DNA of 64,000 nt, taken from Actinomycetospora lutea. Lineage in GTDB: Bacteria > Actinomycetota > Actinomycetes > Mycobacteriales > Pseudonocardiaceae. The stretch lies in contig NZ_JAQZAL010000016.1 of the NCBI RefSeq assembly GCF_028737205.1, positions 62,001-126,000 of the forward strand. Reading direction: 5' to 3'. A program made the translations under genes and the position numbers. How positions within the stretch are numbered: position 1 is the stretch's first letter; each line of letters starts with the position of its first letter. This document shows positions 40,568 through 63,669 of this stretch, in pieces. The notes below the pieces were generated by a model. It searched no databases. It had not been told where the DNA came from and saw nothing but the letters and a program-made list of their open reading frames with translations.

Positions 40568-41755
40568 TCACGACCGCGCCAGCGCGTCCCCGGCCCGTCG
40601 CGCGCGCTCGACGACGGGGCCGATCGCCTCGACCACCGCGTCCACGTCGGCGGCCGTGGAGTTGTGGCCGAGGGAGAAGCGCAGCGAGCCGCGCGCAAGG
40701 TCCTCGTCGAGGCCCATCGCGAGCAGGACGTGGCTGGGGCGGGCGACGCCGGCGGTGCACGCCGAGCCGGTGGAGCACTCGATGCCCCGGGCGTCGAGCA
40801 GCATCAGCAGGCTGTCGCCCTCGCAGCCGGGGAAGGACAGGTGCGCGTTGCCGGGCAGGCGCTCGCCGGGCCGGTCGAGCGGCACCCCGTTGAGCCGGGC
40901 GTCGGGCACCTCGGCCAGGACGCGGGCGACGAGGTCGTCGCGCAGGGCCGTCAGCGTCGTCCGGCGGCGCTCGACGTCGGCGACCGCGGCGCGCACGGCG
41001 GTCGCGAGGCTCATGGTGCCGGGCACGTCGAGGGTCCCGGAGCGGACGTCGCGCTCCTGGCCGCCGCCGTGCAGCAGGGGCGTGCACGCGGTGTCGCGAC
41101 GCAGCAGCAGGGCCCCGACCCCGACCGGGCCGCCGAGCTTGTGCCCGGTCAGCGAGAGCGCGTCGACGCCGCTGGCGGCGAAGTCGACGGGCACCGCGCC
41201 GACGGCCTGCACGGCGTCGGTGTGGATCGGCACCCCGGCGGCGTGCGCGACCTCGGCCAGCGCCGCGACCTCGTTGACGGTGCCGACCTCGTTGTTGGCC
41301 CACATGACGCTGACGACGGCGACCTCGTCACCGTGGTCGGCGAGCAGGGCCCTCAGCGCCGCGGGGTCCGCGCGGCCCTGTGCGTCGACCGGCAGGACGT
41401 CGAGGTCCGCGCCCTCGTGCTCGGCGAGCCACTCGCCGGCGTCGAGGACGGCGTGGTGCTCGGCGGCGGACACCACGACGCGCGTGCGCCGCGGGTCGGC
41501 GGCCCGCCGCGACCAGTACAGGCCCTTGAGCGCGAGGTTGTCGGCCTCGGTGCCCCCGGTCGCCAGGACGACCTCGGAGGGCAGCGCGCCCACGGCCTGC
41601 GCGATCGTCTCGCGGGACTCCTCGACCGCGCGCCGCGCCCGCCGACCCGCCGTGTGCAGCGACGACGCATTGCCGACGCGCCCGAGCGCCTCGGTCAGGG
41701 TGGCCGCCGCCTCCGGCAGCATCGGCGTGGTCGCCGCGTGGTCGAGGTAGGTCAT
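40568..41755 (-). CDS. iscS: Cysteine desulfurase (NifS/IscS family)
   Basis: The PLP enzyme takes sulfur from cysteine for tRNA thiolation and Fe-S clusters. The 395-aa product starts [15 protein letters not shown], has the His motif [10 protein letters not shown], the PLP Lys in [11 protein letters not shown] and the catalytic Cys in [16 protein letters not shown]. It is paired with mnmA. TACGCT lies 9 nt before ATG 41755, suggesting a short or leaderless mRNA. The frame is open upstream, but no homology is seen there. Confidence 0.95.
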
Positions 41756-41764
41756 CGACCGGCC

Positions 41765-41770
41765 AGCGTA
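41765..41770 (-). promoter_or_regulatory. -10 box TACGCT of the iscS-mnmA operon
   Basis: The hexamer ends 9 nt before the iscS ATG on the minus strand. No Shine-Dalgarno sequence is seen in between. The opposite side of this 202-bp gap holds TAGCGT (41916-41921), a possible -10 box for the P450. Confidence 0.45.
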
Positions 41771-41957
41771 ATCCCCTCGTGCACCGCCGGTCTCCCCCGC
41801 CGCCCCGCGGCGAGGGAACGTGTCGCGGCGGAGGAGCGGCGGGGCCCCTCGCTCCGGAGGGTCGTCACCTCCGAGGTCCGCGGGCCACGCCGTGGTCATG
41901 CGGCCCCGCGGGCACTAGCGTCGCGGCCGGTCACGCCCGCCCGGCGCCGGAGGTCGC

Positions 41958-43527: not shown

Positions 43528-44487
43528 CTACGAGCTGCGCTTCGCGACCTCCTCGGAGAGCTGCGGGCTGATCGAGAACAGGTCACCCACGACACCGAAG
43601 TCGGCGATCTCGAAGATCGGGGCCTCGGGGTCCTTGTTCACCGCGACGATCGTCTTCGAGGTCTGCATGCCGGCGCGGTGCTGGATCGCGCCGGAGATGC
43701 CGAGCGCGATGTAGAGCTGCGGCGACACCGTCTTGCCGGTCTGCCCCACCTGGAACTGGTTGGGGTAGTAGCCGGAGTCGACCGCGGCGCGCGAGGCGCC
43801 GACGGCGGCGTGCAGCGAGTCGGCGAGGGTCTCGACGACGTTGAAGTTCTCCGCCGAGCCGACGCCGCGGCCACCGGCGACGACGACGTTCGCCTCGGTG
43901 AGCTCGGGGCGGTCGCCGCCCACGATCGGGGCGCGGTTGGACACCTTGCCCGACGTCGCCTCGTCGATCGCCGGGAGGTCGATGTTCTCCTGCGTGCCGG
44001 CGCCGGCCTGCTCCTCGATCTCGATGGAGCCGGCGCGCCACGAGATCACCGCGGTGTCGGTGGTCGCGCGGGACTGCACGGTGAAGGCGCCACCGAAGAT
44101 CGAGTGGGTGCCCTCGCGCTGGCCGTCGATCTCGACGAGGTCGTTGAGCCAGCCGGAGTTGGTGCGCACGGCCAGGCGGCCGGCGACCTCGCGGCCGTCG
44201 GCGCCCGCCGCGATCAGCACGGCCGGCGGGGAGACCCGCTCGACCAGCGCGGCGAGCGCGTCGACCTGCGGGGTCGAGAGGTAGTTCACGGCGTCGTCGG
44301 ACTCGGCGACGTAGACCTTCTCCGCACCGTGCGCCGCGAGGCCCTCGGCGAGCTTCGCCGCGGTGCCCGGCGTGCCGACGACGACGGCCGACGGCTCGCC
44401 CAGGCGGCGGGCGGCCGTGAGCATCTCGTAGGTGTTCTTCTTGATCTCCCCGTCGACGTGGTCGACGAGGACCAGGACCTCAGCCAT
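43528..44487 (-). CDS. etfA: Electron transfer flavoprotein alpha subunit
   Basis: EtfA binds FAD and, with EtfB, passes electrons from acyl-CoA dehydrogenases to the membrane quinone reductase. The 319-aa product ends with the FAD domain [20 protein letters not shown] and [18 protein letters not shown], typical of the family. It lies 27 bp downstream of etfB, one operon. Confidence 0.96.
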
Positions 44488-44514: not shown

Positions 44515-45297
44515 TCAGATGAGCTTCTGGCCCACGAGGAACTCGGCGATCTTCGCGCCGCCGTCGCCCTCGTCCTCGACCTTCTGGCCGCCGGACTTGG
44601 GCGGGCGCGGGGCGAACGAGTCGACCTGCGAGAGCGAGCCCGCGAGGCCGACCTCGCTGGCGTCGAGGCCGAGGTCGGCGATGCCGATGGCGCTCACCGG
44701 CTTCTTCTTCGCGGCCATGATCCCCTTGAACGAGGGGTAGCGCGGCTCGTTGATCTTCTCGCCGACGCTCACGACGGCGGGCAGCGCCGAGGTGACGTCG
44801 CACGTGCCCTCGTCGGTCTCGCGCTTCACGCTCGCGGTGCCGTTCTCGACGGTCAGCGCGTTGGCGTGGGTCAGCGACGGCCAGCCGAGGACCTCGCCGA
44901 GCATGGCGGCCATGGCGCCGCTGCGGCCGTCGGTGGCCTCGTTGCCGGCGAGCACCAGGTCGACGTCGCCGACGGTGCCGATCGCCTTGGCGAGCACCTT
45001 GGCGGTGGTCACGGCGTCCGAGCCGTGCAGCGCCTCGTCGTTGACGTGGACGGCCTTGTCCGCGCCCATCGAGAGGGCCTTGCGGATGGCGTCGGTGGCG
45101 CGGTCGGGGCCGACGGTGAGCACCGTGACCTCGGCGTCGCCCGACTCCTTGATCTTGAGCGCCTCCTCGACGGCGCGCTCGTTGATCTCGTCGAGCACCG
45201 CGTCGGAGGACGCGCGGTCGAGCGTCTTGTCGGCGTCGGAGAGGGTGCGCTCCGACCAGGTGTCCGGCACCTGCTTGATCAGCACGACGATGTTCAT
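44515..45297 (-). CDS. etfB: Electron transfer flavoprotein beta subunit
   Basis: The 260-aa product begins MNIVVLIKQVPDTWSERTL, contains LVLAGNEATDGRSGAMAAML and the recognition-loop type segment AVVSVGEKINEPRYPSFKGIM, all typical of EtfB. AGGAGG precedes ATG 45297. Operator-like TAC-N6-GTA repeats lie 48-76 bp upstream, implying control by a regulator, perhaps tuned to acyl-CoA supply. That link is inferred. Confidence 0.96.
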   Translation of the reverse strand: MNIVVLIKQVPDTWSERTLSDADKTLDRASSDAVLDEINERAVEEALKIKESGDAEVTVLTVGPDRATDAIRKALSMGADKAVHVNDEALHGSDAVTTAKVLAKAIGTVGDVDLVLAGNEATDGRSGAMAAMLGEVLGWPSLTHANALTVENGTASVKRETDEGTCDVTSALPAVVSVGEKINEPRYPSFKGIMAAKKKPVSAIGIADLGLDASEVGLAGSLSQVDSFAPRPPKSGGQKVEDEGDGGAKIAEFLVGQKLI

Positions 45298-48171: not shown

Positions 48172-51100
48172 TCACGCCAGCGCCCGCGCGACGACCGGCC
48201 CGATCGCGGCCCAGCCCCGCGGCGCCACTATCGCCGCGTGGTCGCCCTCGACGTGGTGCGCGACGATGCGCTCGGCGCCGACCAGCTCCCGCCAGGCCGC
48301 GGCCAGCTGCGCGCCGTCCCCCTCGGCACCCTGCGCGGCCGCGAACAGGGTGAGGACCCCGTCGTACCGCGGCGCGTGCGAGGCGCTCCGGATCGCGACC
48401 GTCTGCTCGACCGCGGCCCGCACGGTCTCGACGAGCTCCGGCGCCTCCTGGGCGGCCCCGGGCGGCAGGGCCGCGCGCAGCTCCGCCTCGACGGCGTCGG
48501 CGTCCGGACCCCGACCGTCCGCGCGCTCGGCGGCCAGCGGGCCGGAGTCGATCAGCCCGGTGAACGCGACCTCCTCCCCCGCCGCGACGAGCTGCGCGGC
48601 GAGCGCGTGCACGACGTTGCCGCCGAACGAGTAGCCCAGCAGGTGGTACGGCCCCGCGGGCTGGATCCCGCGGATCGTGCCCAGGTACTCCGCCGCGAGC
48701 TCGTCGATCGTCGGGGCGGTGACCGCCGCCCCGTCCAGCGAGGGCAGCTGCAGCCCGATCACCGGGCGGTCGGCGGGCAGCTCGCGCACGAGCCCGGTGA
48801 ACACCGTCGCGAACCCGCCGGCGGGGTGCACGCAGAACAGCGGGGCGGCGGTGCCCGCGCGGCGCAGCGGCAGCACGTGGGAGCGCGGGAGGTCCAGCGC
48901 GGCGGGACGGTCGTCGCCCGGCGGGCCGACCGTCGCGCGCGCCGCGATCCCGGCGACGGTGCCGCCCTCGAGCACGTCGCGCACCGACAGCTCGACTCCG
49001 CGGCGCCGGGCCCGCGAGACCAGGGCGAGCGAGACGATGCTGTCGCCGCCGACGTCGACGAACTCGTCGTCGAGCTCGACGGCGTCGTTCTCCAGCACCT
49101 CGCGCAGCACGCCCAGCAGCACCGACTCGGCGGGCGTGCTCGGCGCCCGCGACGGCGTCGCGCCGTGCTCGGGGGCCGGCAGCGCGCCGCGGTCGAGCTT
49201 CCCGCTCGGCCCCAGCGGCAGGCGGTCGAGCGCCACGAGCGCGGTGGGCACCATCGCGGTCGGCAGCACGGCCGCGAGGTCCGCGCGCAGCGCCGCGGGG
49301 TCGATCTGCGCCCCGTCGACGGGGACGACATAGCCGACGAGGCGGTCGTCGCGAATGTCGACGACCCCCGCGCGCACGGCGGGATGGCGGGCCAGGGCGG
49401 CCTCGATCTCGGCGGGCTCGATGCGCACGCCGCGGACCTTCACCTGGTCGTCGGTGCGACCCAGGTAGACGAGCTGGCCGTCGGCGCGCCGGCGCACGCG
49501 GTCGCCGGTGCGGTACATCCGCTCGCCGGGCGGGCCGAAGGGGTCGGCGACGAAGGCGCCGGCGGTCTGGCCGGGCAGGCCGAGGTAGCCGCGCGCCAGG
49601 CCGGGCCCGGCGAGGTAGAGCTCGCCGACCATGTCGATGCCGACCGGCCGCAGCCCGCTGCCGAGCACGTAGGCGCGCACGTCCGGATCGGGCCGCCCGA
49701 TCGGCAGCGTGCCCTCGTCGGTGTCCAGGGCCGGCTCGGCGGGGTCGTAGCGCCAGGTCACCGCGTTGATCGTGACCTCGGTCGGGCCGTAGGCGTTGAA
49801 CAGCGCCCGCCGCCCGTCGCCCCAGCGACGCGCCAGCGCGGGGTCGAGCCGCTCGGCGCCGACGACCATGAAGACGTCCGGGTCGACCTGCGCGTCGGCG
49901 GGCATCGCGGCGAGGAACGACGGGAGCAGGTTGAGGCCGGTCACCCGGTGCTCGGCGGCGTAGTCGAGCAGTTCGGGACCGGGCAGCCGCACCTCCTCGG
50001 GCGCGATGACCGACGTCCCGCCCGAGAGCAGGGGCAGCATCATCTGCCAGACCGCGACGTCGAAGCCGGTCGACGCGAAGTGCAGGTAGCGCTCCTCCCC
50101 GACGCCGACGACGTCCTCCTGCAGCGCGACCAGGCCCGGGAAGCCGCTGTGGCTCACCGCGACGCCCTTCGGCCGGCCCGTGGTGCCCGAGGTGTAGATG
50201 ACGTAGGCCAGCGCGTCCGCGGTCAGGCCGCGGCGGGCGTCGACGGGGTCCGTGTCCTCGTGGGGGCCCGGCCCCTCGAGCAGCTCCGGGTCGTCGAGGC
50301 GCAGCACGGGGACGTCGTCGGCGACGGGCAGCCCGGCGTGCACGGCGGCGGTGGTCACGGCCGCGACGGCGTGCGCGTCGCCGACCATGTACTCGAGGCG
50401 CTCGCGGGGGTGGTCGGGGTCCATCGGCACGTAGACCGCGCCGGCCTTGAAGATCCCGAACACGGCCACGACCATCTCCACGTCGCGGCGCAGCAGCACC
50501 GCGACGGGCTGCTCGGGCCGCACGCCGCGGGCGAGCAGGGCGTGCGCGAGACGGTCGGCGCGCCGGTCGAGCTCGGCGTAGGTCAGCACACGGTCGCGGC
50601 ACTCCACCGCGGCCTGGTCGGGCCGGCGGCGGACCTGGGCGGCGAACTCCTCGAGGCAGCCGGCGCGCACGCGGTGGCGCGCGACGTGCTCGGTCCCGGC
50701 CGCCAGCACCGCGGCCTCCTGCTCCGGCTCGAGCAGGCGCAGCCGCGACACCGCCCGGTCGGGGTGGTCGACCATGTCGCGCAGCAGGGTGCGCAGCCGC
50801 TCGCCGATGTCGCGCACGGCGGCGTCGTCGAACGCCGAGGGCTGGTAGCCGAAGCGCAGGACGATGCGCTGCTCGGGCAGCACCACGATGTTCAGCGGGT
50901 AGTGGGTGCCGTCGTCGGTGTCCACGCCGTCCAGCTGCACGCCCGGCGCCAGCGTGACGCCGGTGCGCGCCGACATCGGCAGGTTCTCGGTGACGACCAG
51001 GGTGTCGAACAGGTCGCCCACCCCGACCGCCCGCTGCACCTCGGCGAGCCCGGCGTGGTGGTGGTCGGTCATGGCGACCGACTGCTCGTGCATGGCCGCG

Positions 51101-54100
51101 AGCACCTGCTCGGCGGTGTCGCGGTCGCGGTGGGTCAGGCGCACGACGACGGTGTTGCCGAGCTGGCCGATCATCGTCTCGATGCCGTCGACCTGCCCGG
51201 AGCGCCCCGAGACCGGGGTACCGAACAGCACGTCGTGGCGGCCGGTGAGCCGCGCGAGCAGCAGGCCCCAGGCGGTCTGCACGACCGTGGCCAGCGTGAT
51301 CCCGCGCGCCCGGGCGAAGGCCCGCACGTCGTCGCTGAGCGCGCCGTCGAGCTCGAGCTGCCGGCGCGCGGGCCGCTCCAGGCCCGCGTTCCTCGCGGCG
51401 GGCGCGAGCCGTGTGCCCTCGTCGATGCCGGCCAGCTGCCGGCGCCACGCCGCGAGCGACGCGGCGCGGTCCTGGCGGGCGAGCCAGCGCAGGTAGTCGG
51501 TGACCGGGGCCGGGACGGGCGCCGGGGTGCCGCCACCGAGCTCGTCGTAGATCGCGAACAGCGTCCGGCACACCAGCGGCATCGACCAGCCGTCGAGCAG
51601 CGCGTGGTGGTTGGTGATCACGAGCCGGTGGTCCGCGGCGCCGAGCGTGAGCAGGACGAAGCGGATCAGCGGCGGGCGGGCCGGGTGCCAGGGGCGGTCC
51701 ATCTCGGCGCGCGCCGCGGCGGCGACGGCCTGCTCGGCGTCGTCGCGGCCGGCCACGTCGACGTGTGCCCAGCCGAGCTCCACCTCCTCGGGCACGACCT
51801 GCACGACCTCGCCGGTGGCGGCGGTGGTCAGGGCGCTGCGCAGGGCGGGGCTGCGGCGCAGGAGCTCGGCGGCGGCGGCCTCGAGGCGCGCCGGGTCGAT
51901 CTCACCGGTGAGGTGGTGCACGCCCTGCACGAGGTAGACCTCGGCGTCGGTGTCCTGCCGGGCGAGGCTGTGCACGGTGAGCCCGGCCTGCAGCGCCGTC
52001 GCCGGGAGGGCCTCGCGGATCGGGCCGTCGAAGTCGACGGCGGCCGGGTCGACGGTGACGTCCGGGAGCGCCTCGTGCTCCGTGCTGCGCCGCGCCAGCG
52101 TCGCCAGCGACGCCAGGTCCGGCGCCGCGAGCAGCTCGCGCGGGCGCAGCTCGAGCCCGTGCGCGCGCAGCCGCGAGCACACGGCGATCGCGGTGATGCT
52201 GTCGCCGCCGAGCCCCACGAAGTCGTCCTCCACCGCGACCCGCTCGAGGTCCAGGACGTCGGCGAGGACGCTGGCGAGCGCCTTCTCCGACGGGGTCTCC
52301 GCAGCGCGGCCGGAGCGGGCGCCGGCCGACGCCGGGAGCGCGCGGCGGTCGAGCTTCCCGCTGGTCGTGGTGGGCAGCTCGTCGAGCACCACCACCGCGG
52401 AGGGCACCATGTGCTCGGGCACCCGGGCGGCGAGGGCGCGCCGGACCCCGTCGGGCGTCACGGAGCCCACCTCGGGGCCGACCACGTAGCCGACCAGCTG
52501 CGGGCGGCCGGTGTCGGTGCGGACCAGGGCGGCCGCCGCGCGCACCCCGGGCAGGTCGGCGAGCTGCCCCTCGACCTCGCCGATCTCGATGCGATAGCCG
52601 CGGATCTTGACCTGGCCGTCGCCGCGGCCGAGGTAGTCGAGCCCGCGGCCCGGGACCCAGCGGGCGAGGTCGCCCGTGCGGTACATGCGCTCGCCGGGCG
52701 CGCCGTAGGGGTCGGCGAGGAACCGCTCGGCGGTCGTGCCCGGGTGGCCCAGGTAGCCCCGCGCCAGGTGCGGGCCGGCGAGGTAGAGCTCGCCGACCGC
52801 GCCGTGCGGCACGGGCTGGAGGGCGACGTCGAGCAGGTACACCCGCGTGCCGGGCAGCCCGGTCCCGATGGTCGGGACGCCGGGCGTGAGCGGGGCGGCG
52901 GTGGCGTCGACGGAGGCCTCGGTCGGCCCGTAGACGTTGCGCGCGGGCACGCCGGCGTCGACGACGCGCGCCCACAGCGCGGGCGGGGTGGCCTCGCCGC
53001 CGAGGATCAGCAGCGCCGGCGGGTGCGCGCCGGTGAGCAGGCCCGAGTCGATCAGCTGCGTCGCCATCGAGGGCGTCGTGTCCACGACGTCGATCCCGTC
53101 GGCGCCGAAGGTCGCGAGCAGCTCCTCGGCGTCCCTGGTGAGGTCGGCGTCGTAGAGGTGCAGCTCGTGGCCGTGGAGCAGCCAGAGCAGCTGGTCGATC
53201 GAGGCGTCGAAGGCGAACGAGTAGGTGTGCGCGACGCGCAGGACACCGCGGCCGGCCAGCTCGGGCGCCGTCGCCGGGTGGTGCGCCAGCAGCCCGGACA
53301 GGCCCCCGGCGCGCACGAGCACGCCCTTGGGCCGGCCGGTCGAGCCGGAGGTGTAGATGACGTAGGCGAGCCGCTCGGGGGCGAGCGAGCGGTCGGCGGG
53401 CGGCGTCGCGGGGTGGGCGTCCGCCTCGGCGCGCAGCGCGTCGACGTCGACGGCCGCCTCGAGGGCCGATCCCGTGGCGACGACCAGCGCGGGCCGCGCG
53501 TCGGCGATCAGCTCGCGCAACCGCGCGGTGGGGTGCGCGAGGTCCAGCGGCAGGTAGGCGGCGCCGGCGTCGAGCGCCGCGAGGAGGGTGACGACGAGGT
53601 CGACCGAGCGCGGCAGGGCGACGGCCACCACGTCGTCGGTGCCGATCCCGCGCGCCCGCAGGGCCCGCGCGGTGCGGTGCACCCGGGCCGCCAGCTCGGC
53701 GGCGGTGAGCCGCTCGGCGCCGCAGACCAGGGCGGTGCGGTCCCCCCGCTCGGCGAGGCGGTCGATCGCCGTCGTCACGTCGTCGGGCGCCCCCGCCGCC
53801 GGGCCGGTCCAGTCCGCCAGCAGCTGCGCGCGCTCGTCGGCGCTGGTCAGCGCGACCGCGCCGACCGCCGGCGCCGCGGGCGCGGTCAGCGCGTCGACCA
53901 CCCGCAGCAGCGAGTGCGCGCGCCACTCGACGCCGCGCTGGTCGGTGAGGCGGTCGTCGACCTCGAAGCCGAGGCGCAGCCCGCCGTCGGCGGTGGGCGT
54001 CGCGGTGAGCTCGTAGTCCTGGGGCGGGCCGCCGGCGACGTTGCGCATGACGCCGGTGGAGCCCGCGAAGTCGATCGTGTAGTCGAAGGCCTTGAGGTTG

Positions 54101-55176
54101 ATCCCGCCCAGCAGCATCCCGCCGAGCCCGGGAACGCCCAGCTCGCGGGGCAGGTCGGCGCCCCGGAAGCGCTGGTGGGAGCGCATCTCCTTCATCCGCT
54201 CGGCCACCCGCGCGCTCAGCGCGTCGAGCCCGTCGTCGCCGCGCACCTCCACGCGCAGCGGCAGCAGGTTGACCGCCATCGCCGGCGTGCGCAGGGCGGC
54301 CTTGCCGACGCGGCACATCAGGGGCATGCCGATCACCACGTCGGACTCGCCGTGCGCCCGGTGCAGGAAGGCGGCGAAGCAGGCGATGAGGACGTCCGCC
54401 CAGGTCGTCGCCGAGCGCTCGCCCGCCGCCTTGAGTCGCGCGACGGTCGCGGGCGGGACGACGACGGACGCCGCCACCGTGGCCTGCGGGGCACCGGACG
54501 CGGTGCGCGCGGCGCCGGTGGGCTCGGGCAGCGGGGTGAGGCGGTCGCGCCAGTAGGCCCGGTCGCGCTCGAAGCGCTCGCCCGCGCGGTACTCCTGGTC
54601 GGCCGTGACGAGGTCGGCGATCGCCCCGAACCCGGGCGCGGGCGGCTCGGTGCCGCGGACCAGCGCGGTGTAGTGGGCGGCGGCCCGCCGGGCCATCATC
54701 GCGGCGGAGTAGCCGTCGATGATCACGTGGTGGTAGAGCTGCACCCACCAGACCGCACGGTCGGAGAGACGCAGCAGCGTCTGGCTGTCCAGGCGGCGGT
54801 CGACCAGGCCCCGGCAGGCCTCGGCGGCCCGCGTGCGGATGGCGGCCACCGCGGCGTGCGCGGCCGCGACGGGGTCGGCCTCCGCGCGCAGGTCGACGAC
54901 CTCGGGTGGCGCCGGCGGCTCGTCGGTCAGCGTCTGGCGCGGCCCGTCCGGGGTGTCGTGGAAGCGCAGGTGCAGGGTCTCGGCCTCGTCGGCGGTGCGC
55001 CGCACCGACTCGGCGAGCGCGCCCACGTCGAGCGTCCGCTCGCCGTCGATCTCGACCACGTCGCCGACGAGGTAGTGCGGCGAGTCCGGCTCCAGCCACT
55101 GCGCGTTCCAGATGCCGAGCTGCGCGCCGGTCAGCTCCAGCAGCTCGGTCCGTGGGGCCTGAACAGCGGTGCTCAA
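48172..55176 (-). CDS. Dimodular non-ribosomal peptide synthetase, C-A-T-C-A-T-TE
   Basis: The 2334-aa enzyme has the same domain order as DhbF. C1: YHHVIIDGYS (about residue 149). A1: YVIYTSGSTGRPKG (608). T1: LGGDSITA (990). C2: NHHALLDGWS (1192). A2: YVIYTSGTTGRPKG (1662). T2: VGGDSIVS (2045). TE: GYSFGGN (2179). C1 at the N-terminus fits capture of an aryl group (2,3-DHB) from a separate carrier protein. No epimerisation or cyclisation domain is seen. The start is TTG 55176, supported by GGGAGGA 4 nt upstream. An iron-box palindrome lies 18 bp further upstream. Confidence 0.95.
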   Translation of the reverse strand: MSTAVQAPRTELLELTGAQLGIWNAQWLEPDSPHYLVGDVVEIDGERTLDVGALAESVRRTADEAETLHLRFHDTPDGPRQTLTDEPPAPPEVVDLRAEADPVAAAHAAVAAIRTRAAEACRGLVDRRLDSQTLLRLSDRAVWWVQLYHHVIIDGYSAAMMARRAAAHYTALVRGTEPPAPGFGAIADLVTADQEYRAGERFERDRAYWRDRLTPLPEPTGAARTASGAPQATVAASVVVPPATVARLKAAGERSATTWADVLIACFAAFLHRAHGESDVVIGMPLMCRVGKAALRTPAMAVNLLPLRVEVRGDDGLDALSARVAERMKEMRSHQRFRGADLPRELGVPGLGGMLLGGINLKAFDYTIDFAGSTGVMRNVAGGPPQDYELTATPTADGGLRLGFEVDDRLTDQRGVEWRAHSLLRVVDALTAPAAPAVGAVALTSADERAQLLADWTGPAAGAPDDVTTAIDRLAERGDRTALVCGAERLTAAELAARVHRTARALRARGIGTDDVVAVALPRSVDLVVTLLAALDAGAAYLPLDLAHPTARLRELIADARPALVVATGSALEAAVDVDALRAEADAHPATPPADRSLAPERLAYVIYTSGSTGRPKGVLVRAGGLSGLLAHHPATAPELAGRGVLRVAHTYSFAFDASIDQLLWLLHGHELHLYDADLTRDAEELLATFGADGIDVVDTTPSMATQLIDSGLLTGAHPPALLILGGEATPPALWARVVDAGVPARNVYGPTEASVDATAAPLTPGVPTIGTGLPGTRVYLLDVALQPVPHGAVGELYLAGPHLARGYLGHPGTTAERFLADPYGAPGERMYRTGDLARWVPGRGLDYLGRGDGQVKIRGYRIEIGEVEGQLADLPGVRAAAALVRTDTGRPQLVGYVVGPEVGSVTPDGVRRALAARVPEHMVPSAVVVLDELPTTTSGKLDRRALPASAGARSGRAAETPSEKALASVLADVLDLERVAVEDDFVGLGGDSITAIAVCSRLRAHGLELRPRELLAAPDLASLATLARRSTEHEALPDVTVDPAAVDFDGPIREALPATALQAGLTVHSLARQDTDAEVYLVQGVHHLTGEIDPARLEAAAAELLRRSPALRSALTTAATGEVVQVVPEEVELGWAHVDVAGRDDAEQAVAAAARAEMDRPWHPARPPLIRFVLLTLGAADHRLVITNHHALLDGWSMPLVCRTLFAIYDELGGGTPAPVPAPVTDYLRWLARQDRAASLAAWRRQLAGIDEGTRLAPAARNAGLERPARRQLELDGALSDDVRAFARARGITLATVVQTAWGLLLARLTGRHDVLFGTPVSGRSGQVDGIETMIGQLGNTVVVRLTHRDRDTAEQVLAAMHEQSVAMTDHHHAGLAEVQRAVGVGDLFDTLVVTENLPMSARTGVTLAPGVQLDGVDTDDGTHYPLNIVVLPEQRIVLRFGYQPSAFDDAAVRDIGERLRTLLRDMVDHPDRAVSRLRLLEPEQEAAVLAAGTEHVARHRVRAGCLEEFAAQVRRRPDQAAVECRDRVLTYAELDRRADRLAHALLARGVRPEQPVAVLLRRDVEMVVAVFGIFKAGAVYVPMDPDHPRERLEYMVGDAHAVAAVTTAAVHAGLPVADDVPVLRLDDPELLEGPGPHEDTDPVDARRGLTADALAYVIYTSGTTGRPKGVAVSHSGFPGLVALQEDVVGVGEERYLHFASTGFDVAVWQMMLPLLSGGTSVIAPEEVRLPGPELLDYAAEHRVTGLNLLPSFLAAMPADAQVDPDVFMVVGAERLDPALARRWGDGRRALFNAYGPTEVTINAVTWRYDPAEPALDTDEGTLPIGRPDPDVRAYVLGSGLRPVGIDMVGELYLAGPGLARGYLGLPGQTAGAFVADPFGPPGERMYRTGDRVRRRADGQLVYLGRTDDQVKVRGVRIEPAEIEAALARHPAVRAGVVDIRDDRLVGYVVPVDGAQIDPAALRADLAAVLPTAMVPTALVALDRLPLGPSGKLDRGALPAPEHGATPSRAPSTPAESVLLGVLREVLENDAVELDDEFVDVGGDSIVSLALVSRARRRGVELSVRDVLEGGTVAGIAARATVGPPGDDRPAALDLPRSHVLPLRRAGTAAPLFCVHPAGGFATVFTGLVRELPADRPVIGLQLPSLDGAAVTAPTIDELAAEYLGTIRGIQPAGPYHLLGYSFGGNVVHALAAQLVAAGEEVAFTGLIDSGPLAAERADGRGPDADAVEAELRAALPPGAAQEAPELVETVRAAVEQTVAIRSASHAPRYDGVLTLFAAAQGAEGDGAQLAAAWRELVGAERIVAHHVEGDHAAIVAPRGWAAIGPVVARALA

Positions 55177-55193
55177 CGCGTCCTCCCGGGATG

Positions 55194-55209
55194 GTTAGGC
55201 ATGCCTAAC
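55194..55209. promoter_or_regulatory. Iron-box palindrome upstream of the NRPS gene
   Basis: GTTAGGCATGCCTAAC is a perfect 16-bp palindrome similar to DtxR/IdeR/DmdR sites (TTAGG...CCTAA). It lies 18 bp from the NRPS start and in the shared region with the substrate-binding protein gene. Confidence 0.75.
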
Positions 55210-55313
55210 TCACCATTCCGGGCACGCCCCACGCAAGCGCGTCCGTCCGTTGTCCGGGTCACTCCGGGTGTCGACCTCGCCACGCCGGGCGATCTCCCGG
55301 CTGGTGCGGTGAT

Positions 55314-55331
55314 GCAAGCCTGTCCTAACCT
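55314..55331. promoter_or_regulatory. Iron-box-like half site and -10 of the uptake operon
   Basis: GCAAGCCTGTCCTAACCT reads AGGTTAGGACAGGCTTGC on the other strand, with a good TTAGG half and a weaker second half. It ends in TAACCT (55326-55331), a likely -10 box for the operon starting at 55387. Confidence 0.5.
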
Positions 55332-56426: not shown

Positions 56427-57365
56427 GTGCGGATCGTCCTGTTCGGCTACCAGAAGTGGGGCGCGCGGCTGCTCGCCGCGCTGCTCGAGTCCCGCCACGA
56501 GGTGGTGCTGACCGTCAGCCACCCCGAGGAGGGCGAGTGGGCGCCCGCGATCTTCGAGGAGTCGATGGGCGACCTGGCCCGCGAGCACGGCATCCCCGTC
56601 GTCTACCGCGAGAAGGCCGTCGACGACGAGCTCGTCAAGACGATCGAGGGCTCCGGCGCCGAGATCGGGCTGGCCTGCAACTGGCGGACGTGGATCAGCC
56701 CCGCGGTGTTCTCGGCGCCGGCCCGCGGCACCGTGAACACCCACGACTCGCTGCTGCCGAAGTACGCCGGCTTCTCCCCGCTGAACTGGGCCCTGATCAA
56801 CGGGGAGAGCCAGGTCGGGATCACCGCGCACTGGATGGACGCCGACCTCGACCGCGGCGACATCATCACCCAGCGCACGGTGCCGGTGACGCCGACCGAC
56901 ACCACCGAGGACCTGTTCCACCGCACCGTCGAGCTGTTCGGGCCGCTCTCGCTCGACGCGTTCGACCGCATCGAGCACGGCCCGCACGACTGGCTGCGCC
57001 AGGACCCGGAGCACGCGTCGTTCTTCCACAAGCGCGCCGACCCCGACAACCGGATCCACTGGGACCGGTCGGCGCGGGACCTCGTCAACCTCGTCCGCGC
57101 CCAGACCGGGCCCTACCCGAACGCCTGGTGCCTGCACGAGGGCCGGCGGCTGCGGGTGCTCGAGGCGTCGGTGTCGGCGCAGAAGGCCGGCGGCACGCAC
57201 GGGCGGGTGTTCGCGCGCGAGGGCCGCGGCGTGATCGTCGTCGCCGGCCCCGAGTCGTGGCGCGGCGGGCAGCACGGCCTGGTGCTGCAGCGGGTCCTCG
57301 ACGCCGACGGCACCGAGCACGTCGCCGGCGACTATTTCCGGCGGATGGGCGACTACCTCGAATGA
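56427..57365 (+). CDS. Formyltransferase, probably N5-hydroxyornithine-type
   Basis: The 312-aa product is a methionyl-tRNA formyltransferase-like enzyme using 10-formyl-tetrahydrofolate. The N/H/D active-site pattern is visible in NTHDSLLPKYAGFSPLNWAL and DADLDRGDII. In siderophore clusters such as coelichelin and rhodochelin, such enzymes formylate N5-hydroxyornithine to make a hydroxamate. Being between uptake genes supports that role. The partner N-monooxygenase is not in the window. The stop overlaps the permease ATG by 4 bp. GAGGAG precedes GTG 56427. Confidence 0.85.
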   Translation: MRIVLFGYQKWGARLLAALLESRHEVVLTVSHPEEGEWAPAIFEESMGDLAREHGIPVVYREKAVDDELVKTIEGSGAEIGLACNWRTWISPAVFSAPARGTVNTHDSLLPKYAGFSPLNWALINGESQVGITAHWMDADLDRGDIITQRTVPVTPTDTTEDLFHRTVELFGPLSLDAFDRIEHGPHDWLRQDPEHASFFHKRADPDNRIHWDRSARDLVNLVRAQTGPYPNAWCLHEGRRLRVLEASVSAQKAGGTHGRVFAREGRGVIVVAGPESWRGGQHGLVLQRVLDADGTEHVAGDYFRRMGDYLE

Positions 57366-58411
57366 CCGCCGCGACCGCCCCCTCCGAGGAGGACCGCAGG
57401 TCCCCACCCCTGTTCACCGGGCCCGCCCGCGTGGCGGGCCTGGTGGTGGCGGCGGTCCTGCTGGTCGTGGCGGTCCTGCTGTCGCTGGCGGTGGGGGCGC
57501 TGCCGGTGTCCCCGCTCCAGGTCGTGACGGCGTTCACCGACTATTCCGGCACCGACGCGCACGTCGCGGTCCGCGAGCTGCGGCTCCCCCGCACGCTGAT
57601 CGGGATCGCGGTCGGCGCCGCGCTCGCCGCGGCGGGGACGGTGATCCAGGGCGTCACCCGCAACCCGCTCGCCGACCCCGGCATCCTCGGCATCGAGGCC
57701 GGGGCGGCGTTCGCGGTGGTGACGGCGATCTACGTCCTGGGCATCTCCACGGTGGGCGGCTACTCCTGGTTCGCGCTGGCCGGCGCGGCCGTCGCCGCCG
57801 TCGTCGTGTACGCGCTCGGGGCCTCGGGGCGGGCGGCCTCGAGCCCGGTGACGCTCGCGCTCGCGGGCGCCGCGGTGGCCGCGCTGCTCATCGCGCTGAC
57901 CTCGGCCCTCGCGCTGCTGGACTCCGGCACCCTCGACGCGTTCCGGTTCTGGGTGGTCGGCTCGCTCGCCGGGCGCGACCTCGCGATGCTGGCCGGCGCG
58001 GCCCCGTTCCTCGGCGTGGGCCTGCTGTTCGCGCTCGCGTCCGGGCGCGCGCTCAACGCGCTGGCGCTCGGCGAGGACGTGGCCCGCTCGCTGGGCCAGC
58101 GGGTCGCGCTGAACCGGGTGCTCGCGGCGCTCGCGGTCGTCGGCTGCGCCGGCGGGGCCGTGGCCATCGCCGGCCCGATCGGCTTCGTCGGGCTGGTCGT
58201 CCCGCACGCCGCCCGGGCGCTCGTCGGCCCGGACTACCGGTGGCTGCTGCCCTCCGCGATGCTGCTCGGCCCGATCCTGCTGCTGGTCGCCGACGTGCTC
58301 GGCCGCGTCCTCGTGTCGCCGGGCGAGCTGCAGGTCGGGATCGTCATGGCCGTGATCGGCGCGCCGGTGTTCATCTGGCTCGTGCGCCGGGGACGGCTGG
58401 TGGCGCTGTGA
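57362..58411 (+). CDS. Ferric-siderophore ABC transporter permease (FecCD family, FepD-like)
   Basis: The 349-aa permease has nine or ten helices and the family motifs LRLPRTLIGIAVGAALAAAG, RNPLADPGILGIEAGAA and AGPIGFVGLVVPHAARALVG. It pairs with the next gene to form the membrane channel. ATG 57362 overlaps the formyltransferase stop, and its own stop overlaps the next GTG. Confidence 0.94.
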   Translation: MTAATAPSEEDRRSPPLFTGPARVAGLVVAAVLLVVAVLLSLAVGALPVSPLQVVTAFTDYSGTDAHVAVRELRLPRTLIGIAVGAALAAAGTVIQGVTRNPLADPGILGIEAGAAFAVVTAIYVLGISTVGGYSWFALAGAAVAAVVVYALGASGRAASSPVTLALAGAAVAALLIALTSALALLDSGTLDAFRFWVVGSLAGRDLAMLAGAAPFLGVGLLFALASGRALNALALGEDVARSLGQRVALNRVLAALAVVGCAGGAVAIAGPIGFVGLVVPHAARALVGPDYRWLLPSAMLLGPILLLVADVLGRVLVSPGELQVGIVMAVIGAPVFIWLVRRGRLVAL

Positions 58412-59475
58412 GCGCTCCGCCCACCGGCGCGCCGACCCGCCCGCGCCGCGTCCCCGTCCGGACCTCGGGGTTCTCGCGGCTGCTCGACCTGCGCCTGCTC
58501 GCGGTGTGCGCCGGCGCGCTCGTCGTCGGGGTGGTCGCGGCCGCGCTGTCGGTGAGCCTCGGGGAGTTCCCGATCCCGCTGGGCGACGTCGCCGCCACCC
58601 TCGTCGGGCAGGGCACGCGCAGCGACGAGTTCATCATCGTGGGGCTCCGGCTGCCGCGGGCGCTGGTCGGGCTGGGCTGCGGGACGGCGCTCGGCATCTC
58701 GGGGCTGGTGTTCCAGACGCTGGTGCGCAACCCGCTGGCGGCGCCGGACATCATCGGCGTCACCGGCGGCGCGAGCCTCACGGGTGTCGCGATCCTCATC
58801 CTCGGCGCGCCGGCCGCGCTGCTGCCCGTCGGCGCGTTCGTCGGCGCCGTCGCGTCGGCGACGCTGGTGTACGCGCTGGCCTGGCGCGGCGGGCTCTCGC
58901 CGTACCGCCTGGTGCTGATCGGCATCGCGCTGGCCGCGGCGTTCTCGGCCGGCACGTCGTACCTGCTGGTCGTGGGCGAGCTGATCGACGTGCAGCGCGC
59001 CGCGGTGTGGCTCGTCGGCAGCCTCAACGGCGTGACGTGGGAGGAGTTCTGGCCGCTGCTGGTCGGGCTCGTGCTCCTGCTGCCCGCGACGGCCCTCCTC
59101 GCGCGGGGCCTGGACGCGCTGGCGCTGGGCGAGGAGTCCGCCGTGGCGCTCGGCATCCGCGTGCAGCGCGCCCGTCTCGGGCTCGTGGTCGTGGCCGCGG
59201 CGCTCGCGGCGTTCGCCGTGGCCGCGGCCGGGCCGATCGGGTTCGTCGCGTTCATCGCCCCGCACATCGCCCGGCGCCTGTCCGGGCTGACCGGAGCCGC
59301 CGCGCTCCCCGCGGCCGCGCTCGTCGGGGGCGTGCTGGTGATGGTCTGCGACCTCGTCGCCCGGCTCGTCCTGGCCCCGATCGAGCTGCCGGTCGGCACC
59401 GTGACCGCCGTCGTCGGCGCGCCCTTCTTCCTGTACCTGCTCCACCGCGCGAACCGTCCCGTGGGAGGGGGCTGA
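58408..59475 (+). CDS. Ferric-siderophore ABC transporter permease (FecCD family, FepG-like)
   Basis: The 355-aa permease has LRLPRALVGLGCGTALGISG, RNPLAAPDIIGVTGGASLTG and AGPIGFVAFIAPHIARRLSG, typical of the second FecCD subunit. The first 35 residues are basic and cytoplasmic. GTG start with 4-bp overlap. The ATPase gene follows after 3 bp. Confidence 0.94.
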   Translation: MSAPPTGAPTRPRRVPVRTSGFSRLLDLRLLAVCAGALVVGVVAAALSVSLGEFPIPLGDVAATLVGQGTRSDEFIIVGLRLPRALVGLGCGTALGISGLVFQTLVRNPLAAPDIIGVTGGASLTGVAILILGAPAALLPVGAFVGAVASATLVYALAWRGGLSPYRLVLIGIALAAAFSAGTSYLLVVGELIDVQRAAVWLVGSLNGVTWEEFWPLLVGLVLLLPATALLARGLDALALGEESAVALGIRVQRARLGLVVVAAALAAFAVAAAGPIGFVAFIAPHIARRLSGLTGAAALPAAALVGGVLVMVCDLVARLVLAPIELPVGTVTAVVGAPFFLYLLHRANRPVGGG

Positions 59476-59478
59476 CCC

Positions 59479-60582
59479 GTGAGCCTGCACGCCCGTGACC
59501 TGACCCTGGGCTACGGCGGGGACCCGGTCGTCGCCGACCTCTCCCTCGCGCTGCCCGCGGGCGAGATCACGGCGATCGTCGGCGCCAACGCCTGCGGCAA
59601 GTCGACGCTGCTGCGCGGGCTCGCCCGCCTGCTCGCTCCCCGGTCCGGGGCGGTGCTGCTCGACGGGACCGAGCTCGCGAAGCTCGGCACCCGCGAGGTC
59701 GCCCGGCGCCTCGGCCTGCTGCCGCAGTCGCCCGCGGCACCCGAGGGGCTGACCGTGGAGGACCTCGTCGCCCGCGGCCGCTACCCGCACCAGTCCTGGC
59801 TGCAGCAGTTCTCCCGCGACGACCAGGACCACATCGAGTGGGCCCTCGAGGTCACCGACACGGTCGGGCTGCGCCGCCGCGCGCTCGACCAGCTGTCCGG
59901 CGGTCAGCGCCAGCGGGCCTGGATTGCGATGGCCCTGGCCCAGGACACCGAGATCCTGCTGCTCGACGAGCCCACCACGTTCCTCGACATGGCCCACCAG
60001 GTCGAGGTGCTCGACCTGCTCGCCGACCTCAACCGCGAGCAGGGCCGCACCGTCGTCATGGTGCTGCACGACCTCAACCAGGCCTGCCGCTACGCCGACC
60101 ACCTGGTCGCCATGCACCGGGGGCGCATCCACGTGCAGGGCCCGCCCGCCGAGGTCGTCGACGCGGAGATGGTCAAGGCCGTCTTCGGGCTCGACGTGCG
60201 GATCGTCGCCGACCCCGAGGAGCACACGCCCCTGTGCGTGCCCGCGCGGCGGCGCCGCCGGCGCTCGGAGGCGGCGGTCGGCGAGCACGATCCCTCGCCC
60301 CGGACCCGACCTGACCAGCCCCCTGCACCGACGGAAGGACCAGCCATGGCGGCAGTGATCCTCGATCGCGACCGGCTCCGGGCCGACATCGCGGCGGCCC
60401 TCGGCGAGGCGCCCGAGGACGTCGGCGACGACGACGACCTCATGGATCTCGGCCTCGACTCGATCCGGCTCATGAGCCTCGTCGAGCAGTGGCGCGCCGA
60501 GACCGGCTCCGAGATCGGCTTCGTCGACCTCGCCGAGGAACCCACTGTCGCGGCCTGGAGCCGCCTGTTCAACGGAGCGTGA
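59479..60582 (+). CDS. Siderophore ABC transporter ATPase read in frame with an acyl/aryl carrier domain
   Basis: The 367-aa frame has an FepC/FecE-type ATPase (residues 1-255): Walker [10 protein letters not shown], signature [18 protein letters not shown], Walker [13 protein letters not shown] and the switch His in VLHDLNQ. No stop codon follows. An Arg-rich then Pro-rich linker of about 35 residues leads into a phosphopantetheine carrier domain (290-367) with [15 protein letters not shown]. Ribosomes starting at GTG 59479 should make the fusion. An internal ribosome-binding site and ATG (60346) may also give the carrier alone. One base shift would bring a TGA into frame in the linker. Confidence 0.88.
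60346..60582 (+). other. Carrier protein (ArCP/PCP) with own internal start
   Basis: ATG 60346 is preceded by GGAAGGA (60333-60339) at good spacing and would give a 78-aa free carrier, [20 protein letters not shown] and so on, with the 4'-phosphopantetheine Ser in GLDSIRLM. The isochorismatase in this locus lacks the carrier domain that EntB has, so this is the likely carrier for 2,3-DHB that feeds the NRPS. It is in frame with the ATPase. Confidence 0.75.
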
Positions 60583-60586
60583 CCCG

Positions 60587-60841
60587 ATGCCCAATCCGTT
60601 CGACGACAGCGACGGCCGCTTCCTCGTGCTCGTGAACGACGAGGGCCAGCACAGCCTCTGGCCCGTCTTCGCCGAGGTCCCGGCGGGGTGGACGGTGGTG
60701 CTGGGCGCCGAGGCCCCGGGCGGCGGGACGGACGGCGAGCCGGGCGTCGACCGTGCCGCCGCGCTCGCCTACGTGGAGCAGCACTGGACCGACATGCGTC
60801 CCCGCAGCCTCGTGGAGAGCATGGAGCGCGCGGGGCGCTGA
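60587..60841 (+). CDS. MbtH-like protein
   Basis: MbtH proteins bind adenylation domains and are often needed for their activity. The 84-aa product has the signature [20 protein letters not shown] and [17 protein letters not shown]. It is slightly longer than usual because of a Gly/Glu-rich insert. ATG 60587 lies 4 bp after the carrier stop. Last gene of the uptake/carrier operon. Confidence 0.94.
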
Positions 60842-60984: not shown

Positions 60985-61250
60985 CGTAGAGCGTCGCGAC
61001 CCGGCGGGCGATCAGCGAGGAGCCGTACGCGTCCGTCACCACCTGCTGGTAGCGGTGGAACCAGACGTGGTGCCCTCGTCGAGGCGCAGCAGGGCGGGGG
61101 AGGACCGCGGGCCCTCGTGCAGTTCCGAGGGGGCCCTGGGCCTCCTCGATCCACGTGTGCGCCGCCGGTGGTGTGGATCGGGGTGGCGGGGTCGAGGTGG
61201 TGGGCGAACCAGATGCCCTCCTGCGCCCCGGTGAGGGGCAGGTCGGTCAC
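60985..61250 (-). pseudogene. Remnant of an NRPS condensation domain, frameshifted
   Basis: From GTG 61250 the minus strand reads [20 protein letters not shown], a clear C-domain N-terminus. The homology then changes frame (ALLRLDEGT in another frame, then [17 protein letters not shown] and SSLIARRVATLYG in a third). The HHxxxDG active site has become YQQVVTDAYG, and the spacing is too short, so about 50 or more residues are deleted. It overlaps the isochorismatase stop by 4 bp, as if an NRPS gene once followed in the operon. The sequence beyond 60985 shows no homology. Confidence 0.8.
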
Positions 61251-61918
61251 GCCGGTGCGCGGCGGGCGACGCGGTCGAACGCTCCGAGCACGCCGGCGGT
61301 CGGGAGCACGACCCCGCAGCGCTGCGCGGTCCACGTCAGGGCCTGCTCGTGGTGGTCGCGGGAGAAGTCGGCGACCGCGTCGGCCACGAGGAACGGCTGC
61401 ACGTCGCGCATGAACGCCTCGACGGCGGTGACCATGCACCCGATGTGCGCGTAGATCCCGGTGATCAGCAGCTGGTCACGGCCCGCGTCGGCGAGCAGGT
61501 CGTGCAGCGAGCTGCGCTGGAAGGCGCTGTAGCGCCACTTGGTCAGGACCTCGTCGCCGGCCGCGGGCGCGAGCTCGTCGACGATCGACACGACCCCGGG
61601 GTCCTCGAGGTAGGCGGCAGCCGGCCCACGTCCCCAGAAGTCGTCGAGCAGGCCGCGGTCGGCGGGCGGCTGCTCGCCGGGCTGCGCGGTGTAGACGACC
61701 GGGACGCCCAGCGACCGGGCCCGGGCGGTCAGCGTGGCGATGTTCGCGACGCAGACGCTCACCGGCTCCTCGTCCCGCGCGAACGGGGCGAGGAAGTAGC
61801 GCTGCATGTCGTGGACGAGCAGGACCGCGCGCTCGGGGTCGGGCGACCAGTCGGGGCGGCTGGCCGGCAGCTCGTCCGCGTGCGGCATCGGGTAGGGCGC
61901 GATCGACGGGATGCTCAC
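61247..61918 (-). CDS. Isochorismatase (2,3-dihydro-2,3-dihydroxybenzoate synthase), without carrier domain
   Basis: The enzyme cleaves isochorismate to 2,3-dihydro-DHB and pyruvate. The 223-aa product matches the EntB/DhbB N-terminal domain: [15 protein letters not shown] (Asp), [12 protein letters not shown] (Lys), [19 protein letters not shown]. The C-terminal carrier domain of EntB is missing. GTG 61918 overlaps the ligase stop by 4 bp. Confidence 0.94.
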
Positions 61919-63669
61919 GGGTGGGTCTCCTCTGCCTGCTCGGCCTGGCTCGACGTGGCGCGCGCGGCGAGCGCGGTCCGCAGCGCCCGGCGGCTGGTCT
62001 TGCCCACCCCGGTGACGGGGAAGGCGTCGACGACCTCCACGGTGTCCGGCACCTTGTAGGCGGCCACCCCGCGCTCGCGCACGAAGCGGCGCAGGGCGTT
62101 CGGGCGCGGCGCGTCCCGGTCGGGCACCGGGATGACGTAGGCGTGGGTGCACTCGCCCAGGAACTCGTCCGGGACGCCGACGATCGCCGCGTCGACGACG
62201 TCGGGGTGGGCGAGCAGGTGGTTCTCGACCTCCTCCGCGGCGATCTTCTCGCCGCCCCGGTTGATCTGTTCCTTGACCCGGCCGGTGACGACGATGTCGC
62301 CGCGCTCGGTGATCCGGACCAGGTCGCCGGTGCGGTAGAAGCCGTCGGCGGTGAACGCCTCGGCGTTTTGCTCCGCGGCGCGGTAGTAGCCGCGGATCGT
62401 GTAGGGCCCGCGGGTGAGCAGGGCCCCGACCTCGCCGCGGGGCACCTCGCGCTCGTCGGGGTCCGCGGGGTCGACCACCCGGATCTCGTCGTCCGGCGAG
62501 ATCGGACTGCCCTGGGTCTCCTCGACGACGTCGTCGGGGTCGTCGTCGCGGGTGTAGTTGACGAGGCCCTCGGCCATGCCGAACACCTGCTGCAGGCGCG
62601 CCCCCAGCGCCGCCGGGATGCGGCGGGCGAGCTCGGCGGCGCACTTGGCCCCGCCGACCTGCAGCATCGCGAGGCTGGAGAGGTCCCTCGTCGACGACGA
62701 GGCCGCCTGCACCCACGCCGCCGCCAGCGGCGGGACCACGGCGGCCAGCGTGACCCGTTCCGCCTCGATCAGCGCGAAGCAGGTGTCGGCGTCGGGTGCG
62801 GGCGCGAGCACCGAGGTCCCGCCGGCGTGGACCACGCCCAGCAGGCCCGGCGAGCTCATCGTGAAGTTGTGGGCGGCCGGCAGGGCCGCGAGGTACACGG
62901 TGTCGCGCGACAGGCCGCAGATCTCCGCGCTGGCCCGGACGCTGTAGAGGTAGTCGTCGTGGGTGCGCGGGATCAGCTTGGGCAGCCCCGTCGTGCCGCC
63001 CGAGAGCTGCAGGAACGCGACCGACGACGGATCGGCGTCGTCGCCGGGCAGCACGTCGGGCGGGGTGCGGCGCAGCGAGGCGAGCGTGACGGCACGGTCG
63101 GGGAGCTCGCCGCCGCCCGCGACCACCACGTGGCGCACGCTCGGCACCGCGGCGGCCACCTCGGCGGCCGCCGCCGCGTGGTCGAACCGGTCGTGCCGGG
63201 CCACCGTGACGATCGCGACCGCCTCGGCGTGCTCGGCGAAGTAGCGGATCTCGCTGCCGCGGTGGGCGGGCAGCGCGAACACGGGCAGCGCGCCGAGCCG
63301 GAACAGCGCGAAGACCGTCTCCAGGTACTCGGGGACGTTCGGGAGCCACACCACGACCCGGTCGCCGGGTGCCACCCCGCGCTCGGCGAGGCCGGCGGCC
63401 AGGCCGCGGGCGCGCGCGTCGAGCTCGGCGTAGGTCCAGCGCTGCGCGCCCGACGGGCCGGTGCCGACGACGGCCGTGCGGTCGCCGTGGTCGGCGACGG
63501 CACGGTCGAGCAGCGCCGGGAAGGTCTGCCCTGTCCAGTACCCCGCCGCGCGGTAGCGCTCGGCGAACGCGGCCGGGTAGGGCACGACGTCCTCGGCGAG
63601 CGACCCGCTCACGGTGCTGGTCGGTGCCAGCTCCCCTATCGCCGTGCTCCCGTGAACGCTCCGTGTCAC
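61915..63669 (-). CDS. 2,3-dihydroxybenzoate-AMP ligase (EntE/DhbE-type)
   Basis: The enzyme activates 2,3-DHB as its adenylate and loads it on a carrier. The 584-aa product has [20 protein letters not shown] with [14 protein letters not shown] (aryl-acid type His), [22 protein letters not shown] and [18 protein letters not shown]. The family's usual length is 540, so a short N-terminal extension is present. GTG 63669 overlaps the isochorismate synthase stop. A Met-free N-terminus leaves the exact start open. Confidence 0.94.

Follow-up and report, generated by a model that had tools for sequence, protein, structure and literature searches.

In GC-rich genomes, a frame that stays open from one gene into the next is weak evidence of a fusion. 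A locus of this kind lies in the 64,000-nucleotide stretch of Actinomycetospora lutea DNA analysed here (the window; contig NZ_JAQZAL010000016.1, positions 62,001 to 126,000), where the ATPase gene of a siderophore importer and the gene of an aryl carrier protein share one frame. Does this organism tether its carrier to an import ATPase, or are two separate genes joined on paper only? Annotation by the longest frame would give a single 367-aa protein here and hide a carrier needed by the siderophore pathway. A false fusion can be tested for cheaply, by seeking the C-terminus and stop of a relative in the neighbouring frame.

The open frame and its siderophore gene cluster

The frame comprises 367 codons without an internal stop, from GTG at 59479 to TGA at 60580–60582 on the forward strand. 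In profile searches, residues 19–167 matched PF00005 and residues 298–363 matched PF00550. An ATG at 60346, in the same frame, is the start of a 78-aa carrier and is preceded, at a spacing of 6 nt, by the ribosome-binding-site-like GGAAGGA; a purine-rich stretch occupies the equivalent position in the nearest relative. The first-pass annotation of this DNA had described the open 367-aa frame, identified its halves as a FepC-type ATPase and an aryl/peptidyl carrier and pointed to the internal ribosome-binding site and start codon, and all of this is borne out. The features of the locus are as follows.

48172..55176 (−): two-module NRPS (C, A and T domains, two of each, and a single TE domain; domain search)
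58240..59475 (+): FecCD-type permease of the importer, next to the ATPase (PF01032)
59479..60314 (+): FepC/FecE-type ABC ATPase (PF00005; end taken from the relatives' stop and the remnant stop)
60250..60345 (+): apparent linker, consisting of the ATPase end and the spacer before the carrier (codon composition)
60312..60314 (+): remnant of the ancestral ATPase stop (TGA), out of frame (C-terminus match to the nearest relative)
60333..60339 (+): ribosome-binding-site-like GGAAGGA
60346..60582 (+): free-standing aryl carrier protein, 78 aa (PF00550, 55.4 bits)
60587..60841 (+): MbtH-like protein (PF03621)
61247..61888 (−): isochorismatase without a carrier domain (PF00857 only)
61915..63642 (−): AMP-dependent ligase (PF00501 and PF13193)

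The ATPase scores 106 bits against PF00005 and resembles the FepC/FecE-type iron-siderophore ATPases both in its FecCD permease neighbour and in its best NCBIfam matches, NF008409 and NF007606, which span residues 1–260 and nearly the whole profiles. Unlike those ATPases, it falls below the curated cut-offs (324 bits against 375 for NF008409 and 314 against 497 for NF007606); with both equivalog cut-offs missed, the siderophore substrate is not assignable from the models. The carrier contains a GLDSIR motif whose serine, at 60460–60462, is the attachment serine of the PP-binding domain, and GLDSIRLM is invariant in all nine aligned carriers (the window and eight congeners; alignment A1, built from 9 of the 13 places of the genus search with L040–L043 left out).

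The gene neighbours suggest an aromatic substrate for this carrier. The AMP-dependent ligase is probably the aryl-AMP ligase that loads it, a role assigned from the adjacent isochorismatase. As the isochorismatase of the cluster has no carrier domain, the free carrier would supply the ArCP function to the NRPS. The arrangement differs from that of EntB-type isochorismatase–aryl carrier proteins, which have a carrier domain of the same kind: here the isochorismatase and the carrier are encoded by two genes, one on each strand. In the kineochelin cluster, an actinomycete siderophore system, the aryl carrier is likewise encoded separately from the initiating NRPS, as the ArCP-TE didomain protein KinT; KinT includes a thioesterase, whereas the carrier of the window stands alone (PMC13238742).

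Two further observations concern the surroundings of these genes. A formyltransferase-like frame lies within the importer operon at 56457–57365 (+), with NF005414 as its best match (166.6 bits against a cut-off of 316). This putative enzyme might formylate a hydroxyornithine residue of the siderophore. To the left of the cluster, electron-transfer flavoprotein subunit genes (44515–45297 and 43528–44487, −) stand beside a class-V aminotransferase gene (40568–41899, −).

The junction in relatives and the displaced stop

The genome of the window measures 6.5 Mb in 106 contigs, and its closest records are Actinomycetospora species. We searched 61 genomes and obtained loci for 30 matches; all three of ATPase, carrier and MbtH were matched at 11 of these, one being the window's own, and the junction comparison used the 11 of the 30 loci with a carrier match. 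The ATPase stops before the carrier in all ten congeners with the same ATPase–carrier–MbtH order, at a TGA or TAG after 271–284 codons, and the carrier lies in frame 0 relative to the ATPase in three of them, in +1 in three and in +2 in four. Within the genus, a carrier match was found in 12 of 18 genomes, namely that of the window, the ten congeners and G015, whose carrier (L042) is 48% identical and has no ATPase match within its 3.2-kb locus; it was absent from the other six, one of them only 59% complete.

The nearest relative, A. succinea DSM 45775 (NZ_SNYO01000001.1; L002 and L044, taken as a single record), agrees with the window in gene order, in an ATPase 95% identical over 256 aa, in a carrier 96% identical and in the 31 nt between the ATPase stop and the carrier ATG, and differs in that its ATPase has an in-frame TGA and its carrier lies in frame +1. 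Compared with it, the ATPase of the window is conserved in the frame as sequenced up to about residue 264 (60270). Frame +2 of the window at 60291–60314 reads SLAPDPT followed by a stop, and the A. succinea ATPase ends in HEPLAPDPS followed by a stop. The match is short, with six of eight positions identical when PLAPDPS and its stop are set against it, and dinucleotide shuffling of the linker did as well in 5 of 5000 cases. The displaced TGA at 60312–60314 and the carrier ATG are separated by exactly 31 nt, as in A. succinea, and all seven sense codons of the remnant C-terminus have G or C at the third position. L003 and L004, also near relatives, lack the remnant; their ATPase tails are shorter and different (PTVT and a stop).

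In DNA alignments, the junction of the window is a net 19 nt shorter than that of A. succinea ahead of the stop. Two MAFFT settings resolved this difference as one gap of 18 nt plus one of 1 nt, another setting left a single 19-nt gap and a pairwise aligner split it further; because gap placement varies with gap cost, the protein-level match in frame +2 was used instead. A 14-nt insertion was also considered as an account of the junction and dropped. The simplest account would combine one harmless in-frame length change with one single-nucleotide difference that hides the stop. The ATPase and carrier frames thus appear to be joined because a 1-nt length difference near 60288–60296 displaces the ancestral stop, and this difference is likely to be either a sequencing error or a very recent deletion.

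The first-pass annotation had noted that one base could matter between 60280 and 60345, which fits the displaced stop found one frame over. Its central idea, a single protein joining the import ATPase to the biosynthetic carrier, is unsupported, in view of the stop between the genes in ten of ten congeners and of the out-of-frame ancestral stop. It had suggested looking for the same architecture in relatives, where a stop between the two would speak against fusion; the architecture was found in none of the ten congeners, and the stop in every one.

The stop in all ten congeners, the remnant stop, the 31-nt spacing and the internal start signals are features of the DNA itself. On these grounds we hold it very probable that the locus consists of two ordinary neighbouring siderophore-cluster genes whose frame is joined only by a 1-nt length difference displacing the ancestral stop, even though the sequence as given stays open across the junction. 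The first gene would encode the ATPase of a ferric-siderophore importer and the second a free aryl carrier, translated from its own ribosome-binding site and the ATG at 60346. The aryl-AMP ligase would load an aromatic acid onto this carrier, which would pass it on to the NRPS; the free 78-aa protein would then be the working form. Taken as a biological fusion, the 367-aa frame most likely reflects either an error or an accident of very recent date; neither of the two proteins is in itself out of the ordinary.

Open junctions, fused carriers and the alternatives

An open ATPase–carrier junction is hardly more than chance in this DNA. When all three frames were read at the 11 loci, 7 of the 33 lacked a stop at the junction. 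In 4 of the 10 relatives, the frame of the carrier also extends back without a stop into the ATPase gene, yet out of frame with the ATPase. The composition of the linker also differs from that of its surroundings. In 60250–60345, 8 of 32 codons end in A or T, compared with 37 of 804 in four coding stretches that flank it (P = 7.8e-5); in 60295–60345 the count is 7 of 17 (P = 5.6e-6, for a split picked post hoc). Third-position GC is about 0.95 in flanking coding DNA, whereas the linker reaches 0.75 and its second part 0.588. Judged by third-position GC, no coding constraint on the linker was found in the fused frame, and the homology sits in the other frame.

Fused carriers do occur elsewhere, with another partner. 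The carrier part was searched at fused-protein length against 5.8 billion proteins by shared short exact words, a method by which distant relatives may be missed; it gave 206 candidates and eight matches, all eight with PF00857 and PF00550 and none with the ATPase–carrier architecture. The carrier alone gave 43 matches among 46 candidates, the best being a 78-aa free protein with one residue changed (99% identical). For this closest record (P0130), whose contigs are short (the longest has 2549 bases), the separate gene call suggests that its ATPase has a stop. A scan of a one-genome-per-species collection covered 85 relatives, of which 80 were kept, and none of the 80 loci has an ATPase-fused carrier. 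In 13, an ATPase was matched on the carrier's strand no more than 800 nt ahead of it, always with a stop; ten of these are the Actinomycetospora species already counted and three are distant (32–33% identity). Isochorismatase-fused carriers account for 27 of the 80 loci, and 40 belong to a class in which free carriers and long frames are mixed. In the family, 297 of 390 genomes matched the carrier model at E 0.001, a count that may include NRPS carrier domains. Among 19 further family loci drawn from these 297, none has an ATPase match beside the carrier, and an isochorismatase was matched directly ahead of the carrier in 16. When the whole 367-aa protein was searched, the 120 matches listed, from 8000 candidates scored, were 532–602 aa long, with no PF00550 seen among the domains listed; this search speaks neither for nor against a fusion. 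Literature listings on ABC–carrier fusion, adjacent-gene fusion, Actinomycetospora siderophores and rhodochelin-like clusters contributed nothing to the interpretation.

Within the two-gene reading, the nature of the 1-nt difference can be taken in two ways. We give an even chance to its being real and recent, in which case a 367-aa chimera would be made alongside an internally started free carrier, and the chimera would be without selected function. Those other frames of the cluster that were checked, the 2334-aa NRPS among them, are intact, and the sequence bears no mark of error. Nothing speaks directly against this reading; the third positions of the remnant are all still G or C, so the change, if real, would be very recent. 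The proposal of two products from one frame, also made in the first-pass annotation, would be literally true only in this case, and then as an accident. Somewhat short of even is the chance that the difference arose as an error in sequencing or assembly and that the organism has no fusion at all. A single-nucleotide length difference in GC-rich DNA is consistent with such an error, as is the agreement of the stop, the spacing and the C-terminus with A. succinea in other respects.

A real deletion could have a further consequence. The strain might make a 367-aa ATPase with a tethered phosphopantetheinylated carrier in addition to the free one, and so possess a newborn, strain-specific fusion linking import and assembly; we regard this as improbable. 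A selected functional fusion, with the aryl carrier tethered to the ATPase of the importer, has only the open frame and the common pathway in its favour and is rejected as highly implausible, since the architecture is absent from the ten congeners, the eight proteins at fused length, the 80 loci and the 19 further family loci, the linker lacks a coding signature in the fused frame and the remnant stop is still visible in the neighbouring one.

Candidate iron boxes at the junction

Two-gene organization at this junction is accompanied in some congeners by a candidate regulatory site. Iron boxes were scored against the DtxR/IdeR consensus given in PMC1382209. In all seven outlying congeners (L005, L006, L014, L016, L017, L022 and L024), the ATPase–carrier junction holds a site 3–5 mismatches from the consensus, matched by 0 of 200 shuffles for each junction. 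The best junction sites in the window's subclade have 11 mismatches in L001, 12 in L002, 8 in L003 and 9 in L004, and were equalled by 184, 200, 6 and 47 of 200 shuffles, respectively; L003 may retain a faint trace of an iron box. The carrier and MbtH genes are thus probably a separate iron-regulated unit in the outlying species, and within the subclade of the window they are probably carried along by the importer operon, the carrier–MbtH unit there seeming to have lost its own iron-regulated promoter.

Within the window, no iron box was found at up to three mismatches, and a search at up to six gave three overlapping or nearby places in 55190–55328. The palindrome TTAGGCATGCCTAA at 55190–55213, six mismatches from the consensus, sits immediately ahead of both the NRPS start (55176, −) and the importer genes that diverge from it.
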